A stretch of DNA of 64,000 bases from Haloplanus rubicundus (GTDB lineage: Archaea; Halobacteriota; Halobacteria; Halobacteriales; Haloferacaceae): contig NZ_CP031148.1 of the NCBI RefSeq assembly GCF_003342675.1, positions 558,001-622,000 of the forward strand, given 5' to 3'. How positions within the stretch are numbered: the first letter of the stretch is position 1; every line of letters begins with the position of its first letter. This document shows positions 19,767 through 19,895 of the stretch, piece by piece. A model generated the notes under the pieces. The model searched no databases and was not told the origin of the DNA. It was given only the letters and a program-made list of their open reading frames with translations. The translations under genes were made by a program, and so were the position numbers.

Positions 19767-19895
19767 ATACTGTCGGCTGTGACTATTTCGATCGACTCAT
19801 ACGGTTTACTGTAACTGTTCACCGGTGGTTCGTCGAGACGGTCTGGCGAACCACCGGTAATGACTTACAGTAAACCGTATCACAGCCGGCAGTAT
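19767..19895 (-). repeat. Large structured palindrome E1 (stem-internal loop-stem-apical loop)
   Basis: Nested inverted repeats: atactgtcggctgtga (19767-19782) with tcacagccggcagtat (19880-19895); atacggtttactgtaa (19799-19814) with ttacagtaaaccgtat (19865-19880); accggtggttcg (19821-19832) with cgaaccaccggt (19847-19858). The apical loop is 14 nt and the internal loops are ctgttc and aatgac. It runs from the stop codon of the small membrane protein gene to just upstream of the PhnP-like gene. It resembles E2 at 62951-63026. Confidence 0.85.

Follow-up and report, generated by a model that had tools for sequence, protein, structure and literature searches.

The window analyzed here is a stretch of 64,000 nucleotides of Haloplanus rubicundus DNA, and a nested palindrome, E1, lies at positions 19767-19895 between two minus-strand genes. 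A sequence-only reading of the window had described three stacked stems of 16, 16 and 12 bp around a 14-nt apical loop, starting exactly at a gene's stop codon. All of these parts are present at those positions, and the right end of E1 adjoins the stop codon (TCA 19895-19897) of the minus-strand open reading frame 19895-20182. The minimum free energy (MFE) of E1 is -76.7 kcal/mol, compared with -37.7 +/- 3.8 kcal/mol for shuffled sequences (z = -10.3). The same reading named a second element, E2, without coordinates and stated that loop sequences recur in it on different stems. E2 is real and could be located at 62950-63027; it has the same GTAACTG...CTGACTT internal-loop motif as E1, on outer stems TAGGGGTTATCG / CGATAATCCCTA and an inner stem AGATTCTCG / CGAGAATCT. 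The features are as follows.

18913-19737, minus strand: downstream gene, 274 aa, with the E1 elements in its 5' intergenic region
19767-19782 and 19880-19895: outermost stem of E1, 16 bp, 94%
19768-19894: outer short palindrome, TACTGTCGGCTGTGA...TCACAGCCGGCAGTA, 44 bp after subtraction of the inner element and one TCA, with ends as in family B (below)
19797-19799: target-site duplication, left copy, TCA
19799-19814 and 19865-19880: middle stem of E1, 16 bp, 100%
19800-19879: inner element, the 80-bp body of a family-A MITE, TACGGTTTACTGTAACTG...TGACTTACAGTAAACCGTA, with homologous copies in its own and congeneric genomes
19800-19814: left arm of the outer stem of the inner element (terminal inverted repeat), TACGG...TGTAA, the perfect complement of 19865-19879
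19815-19820: conserved internal loop, left side, CTGTTC, with mismatches C.C, G.G and T.T
19821-19832 and 19847-19858: inner stem of E1, 12 bp, left arm ACCGGTGGTTCG
19833-19846: apical loop, 14 nt, TCGAGACGGTCTGG
19859-19864: conserved internal loop, right side, AATGAC
19865-19879: right arm of the outer stem of the inner element
19880-19882: target-site duplication, right copy, TCA (both copies form a 3-bp direct repeat, TCA...TCA, that is single in empty sites)
19895-20182, minus strand: upstream gene, 95 aa, whose stop codon TGA (19897-19895) adjoins the outer palindrome
62950-63027: E2, a 78-bp relative with TAGGG ends, right flank TCA and left flank TCG
63028-63825, minus strand: gene, 265 aa, whose stop codon TCA (63028-63030) adjoins E2

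When E1 was used as a query against its own genome, 75 strand-wise matches were obtained, corresponding to 40 distinct loci and covering essentially the inner palindrome only. What recurs is the inner 80-bp palindrome together with its 3-bp direct repeats; the outer 16-bp stem is outside the repeated unit. Copies of the inner repeat, family A, were present in 12/12 congeneric genomes searched, with a body of exactly 80 bp in 54 of 66 copies. Two further families, B (TACTGYCGGCTGTAAC ends, 77 to 79 bp) and C (TAGTAGC ends, 80 bp), share the core TGTAACTG...TGACTTACA with family A, although their stems are unrelated. Further copies with compensatory changes in their stems, the absence of which would have told against a conserved structure, were found. 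The sequence-only reading also mentioned similar palindromes in haloarchaeal intergenic regions, and the core does occur in other haloarchaeal genera: of the 86 genera sampled, 19 contain it (37 of 391 Halobacteria genomes), with almost no matches to a reversed-pattern control. Such a distribution would explain many unannotated intergenic palindromes. One plasmid match was obtained (Haloplanus sp. GDY1, 79%); no phage match was found for the repeat, and an exact-pattern scan of viral contigs gave none. Among genome contigs outside the near relatives of the source, the exact inner-stem pattern had a single match, in the actinobacterium Kibdelosporangium persicum, which is probably due to chance. 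Our literature search found no description of this repeat.

The flanks and the vacant counterparts of these copies indicate how they arrived. Exact TGA/TGA or TCA/TCA flanks were present in 73 of 102 unique copies, and the near misses were mostly TGA..CGA, as results from decay of the copy farther from the gene. The gene-side triplet is much better preserved than its distal counterpart (T in 97% versus 85%). Decay of the distal TGA leads mainly to CGA (C in 12%), a one-sided bias that drift may explain. We rejoined the flanks of the copies and searched for them within the genus. This search recovered empty sites that lack the 80-bp body plus one TGA and retain a single TGA, namely ...GGTC-TGA-CACG... 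(91.5% identity), ...CTC-TGA-CCCG... and ...TTC-TGA-CGGC...; such element-free gene ends with a single TGA were seen in several congeners (e.g., loci L111, L135, L124, L140 and L126). Because the empty sites contain one TGA, the duplication is 3 bp long and the terminal TA is part of the element. Most orthologous positions are empty when species are compared. At one gene end (L012), genomes G000 and G008 have different family-A copies, G004 has a TAGGG-type relative and G009, which is close to G000, is empty, which suggests that a single site was used repeatedly. At this gene end in G001 (L178), we also observed that a 50-bp unit, CGGATCGAACCACGGTCGTTTCACTCCCTGATTCGAGCCGCCCTCCGGAA, is repeated in tandem. 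With respect to the gene, copies face either way about equally often (51 versus 42; in another count, 47 of 87 one way). Family A is short and non-coding, 80 bp long with 15-bp terminal arms, and the direct repeats together with the empty sites show that it is an inserted mobile element.

Read in the direction of the upstream gene, E1 consists of the TGA of the open reading frame 19895-20182, then TACTGCCGGCTGTGA, the family-A element and TGA-GTCGATCGAAATAGTCACAGCCGACAGTA. Subtraction of the family-A element and one TGA closes a short hairpin with family-B ends, which the inner element had split at an internal TGA/TCA. The outer stem is therefore a separate, older short palindrome at the stop codon of the upstream gene, interrupted by the inner one. 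The opposite nesting, with family B inside an arm of family A, was found at locus L149. It is uncertain whether the outer palindrome is a complete element, as its right end resembles promoter-like sequence of unfilled congeners. The 'CAGTATAAG' segment is common to unfilled congeners (L114, L161, L162 and L164), and the outer right arm may therefore derive in part from an old promoter or from what an earlier insertion left behind. Single half-sites like CAGCCGACAGTATAAA were also observed at two loci in G000 (L157 and L158), that of L157, at least, lying ~40 bp before a start codon; these may be family-B remnants with a promoter role, or the family-B ends may derive from them. Overall, we consider E1 to consist of two palindromic, non-coding mobile repeats, one nested in the other, of which the inner 80-bp repeat is a MITE, with a probability of about 0.86.

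IS630-family elements are the candidate source of the enzyme that moved these repeats. In genome G007, the family-C copies are nearly identical, occupy CTAG-like targets and duplicate TA, a pattern that we read as a recent burst; all 28 family-C ends in this genome were paired at element length, and a search there revealed no element of full length carrying these ends. Two inverted family-C copies in G007 bracket a segment with an IS630-type transposase (NF033545, PF13358), encoded by an IS element that is itself flanked by TGA. The transposase gene is split into two open reading frames, with NF033545 scores of 106.7 bits on the first (cut-off, 100) and 83.6 bits on the second and a PF13358 score of 121.8 bits. 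The bracketed segment (L231:2442-5528 of G007) is 3.1 kb long and contains, besides the IS630 element, a DUF7344 gene and one further gene; the two family-C palindromes share one variant end, and the arrangement is like that of a composite transposon.

A family-wide search identified further IS630-type elements in congeners, in two groups. Those of group 1 (1,122 and 1,148 bp) start with TAGTG[A/T]TTA or TACGG and have 3-bp flanks of TCA, TGA or TAA, with one CCG and one unequal TGA/TCA. They contain a TTTACC(G)G-like sequence (TTTACCGG) at offset 18 from the end, and the motif of this type in the left arm of the E1 inner stem starts at the same offset. An autonomous element that shares ends with family A is thus found in the congeners' group 1, the match being limited to ~5 to 9 terminal bases plus the subterminal motif. 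Group-2 elements, like family C, duplicate TA; they start with TAGTAG or TAGTAA, and the one that best matches family C has TCCGCAC at offset 18, like family C itself. According to the literature, IS630/Tc1 elements insert only at TA and strictly duplicate it (PMC2170065). Given the 3-bp duplication, group 1 and family A together appear to be an atypical IS630 branch and its MITEs, and such elements would constitute a testable exception to the strict TA rule. In this account, an IS630-family transposase acting in trans would insert family A at a T-G-A site and duplicate 3 bp. The resemblance of the ends makes an IS630 enzyme the putative mover of family A. In the genome of E1 itself, no match to DDE_3 (PF13358) was found and no autonomous copy with identical ends was seen. 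As DDE_3 is lacking there, mobility of family A in this genome is either historical or due to an enzyme of another kind, and the transposase supply has presumably been lost from this strain.

According to a codon model, the gene-side TGA is an in-frame stop codon in 77 of 96 copies, and the sequence upstream of the copies has codon periodicity in frame with this TGA. The insertion target resembles GWC-TNA-GNC; weighting the non-coding TGAs of the window by this motif gives a neutral expectation of ~40% at stops, compared with which the excess is real. The same model placed 0 of 19 IS copies at stops, a test possibly biased by the location of IS elements in islands with atypical codon use, and 5 of 16 near-identical recent copies. 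For all copies, 26 of 47 young ones and 70 of 96 old ones were at stops, a weak comparison (P = 0.04). Specific recognition of stop codons during insertion was rejected as the sole cause of the excess on the basis of the IS elements and the young copies. The excess, of which persistence or benefit is the putative cause, is best read as persistence, with weak support. Haloarchaeal genes often end in ...C-TGA, and an insertion there would recreate the stop codon and do no harm. Copies would then persist at gene ends, and the persistence of harmless insertions would account for most copies being at stops even though the IS elements related to them do not share this placement. Because the target duplication of this mini-transposon happens to coincide with a stop codon, the element can settle at gene ends and leave the genes unbroken.

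We next consider the hairpin itself. Pairing was kept in 58 cells in which both sides had changed, compared with 17 by shuffling, and 15 pairs covaried on both sides, a number reached by 0 of 500 shuffles. Inner-stem pairs were kept in 231 of 261 cases, compared with 131 +/- 9 when the arms were reshuffled, in 29 haloarchaeal cores from many genera, usually one or two from each genome, that were hand-picked and are phylogenetically non-independent. The internal-loop mismatches are fixed, with C.C in 82, G.G in 84 and T.T in 66 of 87 copies; C.C and G.G were present in 29 of 29 haloarchaeal cores, although the retrieval pattern itself specifies these two positions. The pairing and the fixed mismatches probably serve recognition of folded or paired ends. 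Inner stems that are free to change and yet remain paired are not predicted by terminal-repeat recognition alone, and this counts against the MITE account. A broader reading, which we regard as tentative and rather doubtful, is that these are order-wide haloarchaeal mobile hairpins in which pairing and fixed mismatches are selected because the element is recognized folded, as a cruciform or single strand. A single conserved core would then have acquired ends suited to two or more IS630 branches, of which one has moved from TA to TNA targets, and the host may in addition make use of the core or hairpin where genes end.

The fixed mismatches on freely changing paired stems are also what would be seen if E1 were a single-strand hairpin mobile element of the IS200/IS605, REP/RAYT or attC-like kind, in which the enzyme reads a folded strand. 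In folded recombination sites, strand-recognition features resemble such mismatches. We nevertheless consider this unlikely: the 3-bp target duplication and terminal inverted repeats are as in DDE transposition, the ends match those of DDE IS630 elements, and the IS200/IS605-derived PATEs have neither terminal inverted repeats nor target duplications (PMC3119063).

The sequence-only reading had proposed a structured RNA or a protein-binding DNA element. The direct repeats and empty sites support a DNA element. A hairpin at the mRNA 3' end that protects or ends transcripts, and is kept at stops for that reason, would fit the very stable fold of E1, the strong covariation (inner stems included) and the stop-codon share above the composition-based neutral estimate. 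However, G-U wobbles (45) are not in excess of A-C mismatches (52) in the sense strand, a result that points more to DNA or arm-to-arm correction than to RNA. Both orientations are used, and the C.C, G.G and T.T mismatches track element polarity and not the direction of transcription. There is no excess at convergent gene ends, the next-gene orientation (36:25) being similar to background (39:20), and near-identical recent copies are often away from stops. No Rfam match was obtained for E1; the only Rfam match of the window is archaeal RNase P RNA (53233-53618, minus strand, 158 bits). The precise 3-bp duplications and empty sites likewise do not favor an RNA. We reject a structured RNA as the primary role on the G-U test and orientation and judge this account quite improbable, although an RNA role could coexist with a MITE origin as a later co-option. 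A fixed host regulatory or chromosome-organization site bound by a dyad-binding protein would suit long, intergenic, many-copy palindromes, but it is extremely improbable and largely refuted by the empty sites, given that positions are unconserved between species and that the copies have target duplications, nesting and a strongly constant transposable-unit length.

Returning to the nested-MITE reading, family A resembles prokaryotic MITEs in being short, non-coding and dispersed, with terminal inverted repeats, a target duplication and a related autonomous element elsewhere (PMC10969869). It differs in that its 3-bp duplication coincides with a stop codon and in that a single palindrome with fixed mismatches makes up nearly all of the element; the MITE review mentions neither stop codons nor IS630 (PMC10969869). 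The candidate movers have the transposase family (NF033545, PF13358) of IS630/Tc1-mariner elements such as ISY100 (PMC2170065), and group 2 and family C duplicate TA as these do, whereas the duplication is 3 bp, T-N-A, in group 1 and in families A and B. REP/RAYT systems also comprise high-copy intergenic palindromes in prokaryotes, but REPs are 20 to 40 bp, most with GTAG or CGTC tags (PMC3733652), while family A is 80 bp with target duplications. The SMRs, PATEs and MITEs of Haloquadratum walsbyi are similarly small palindromic or inverted-repeat haloarchaeal mobile repeats that insert into one another, with up to 54 copies of small mobile repeats per genome (PMC3119063). The SMRs and PATEs lack target duplications, SMR ends are unrelated to known transposons and PATEs have no terminal inverted repeats (PMC3119063); family A differs from both in each of these respects. 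By these comparisons, E1 is a nested MITE pair of an IS630-linked, 3-bp-duplicating group.
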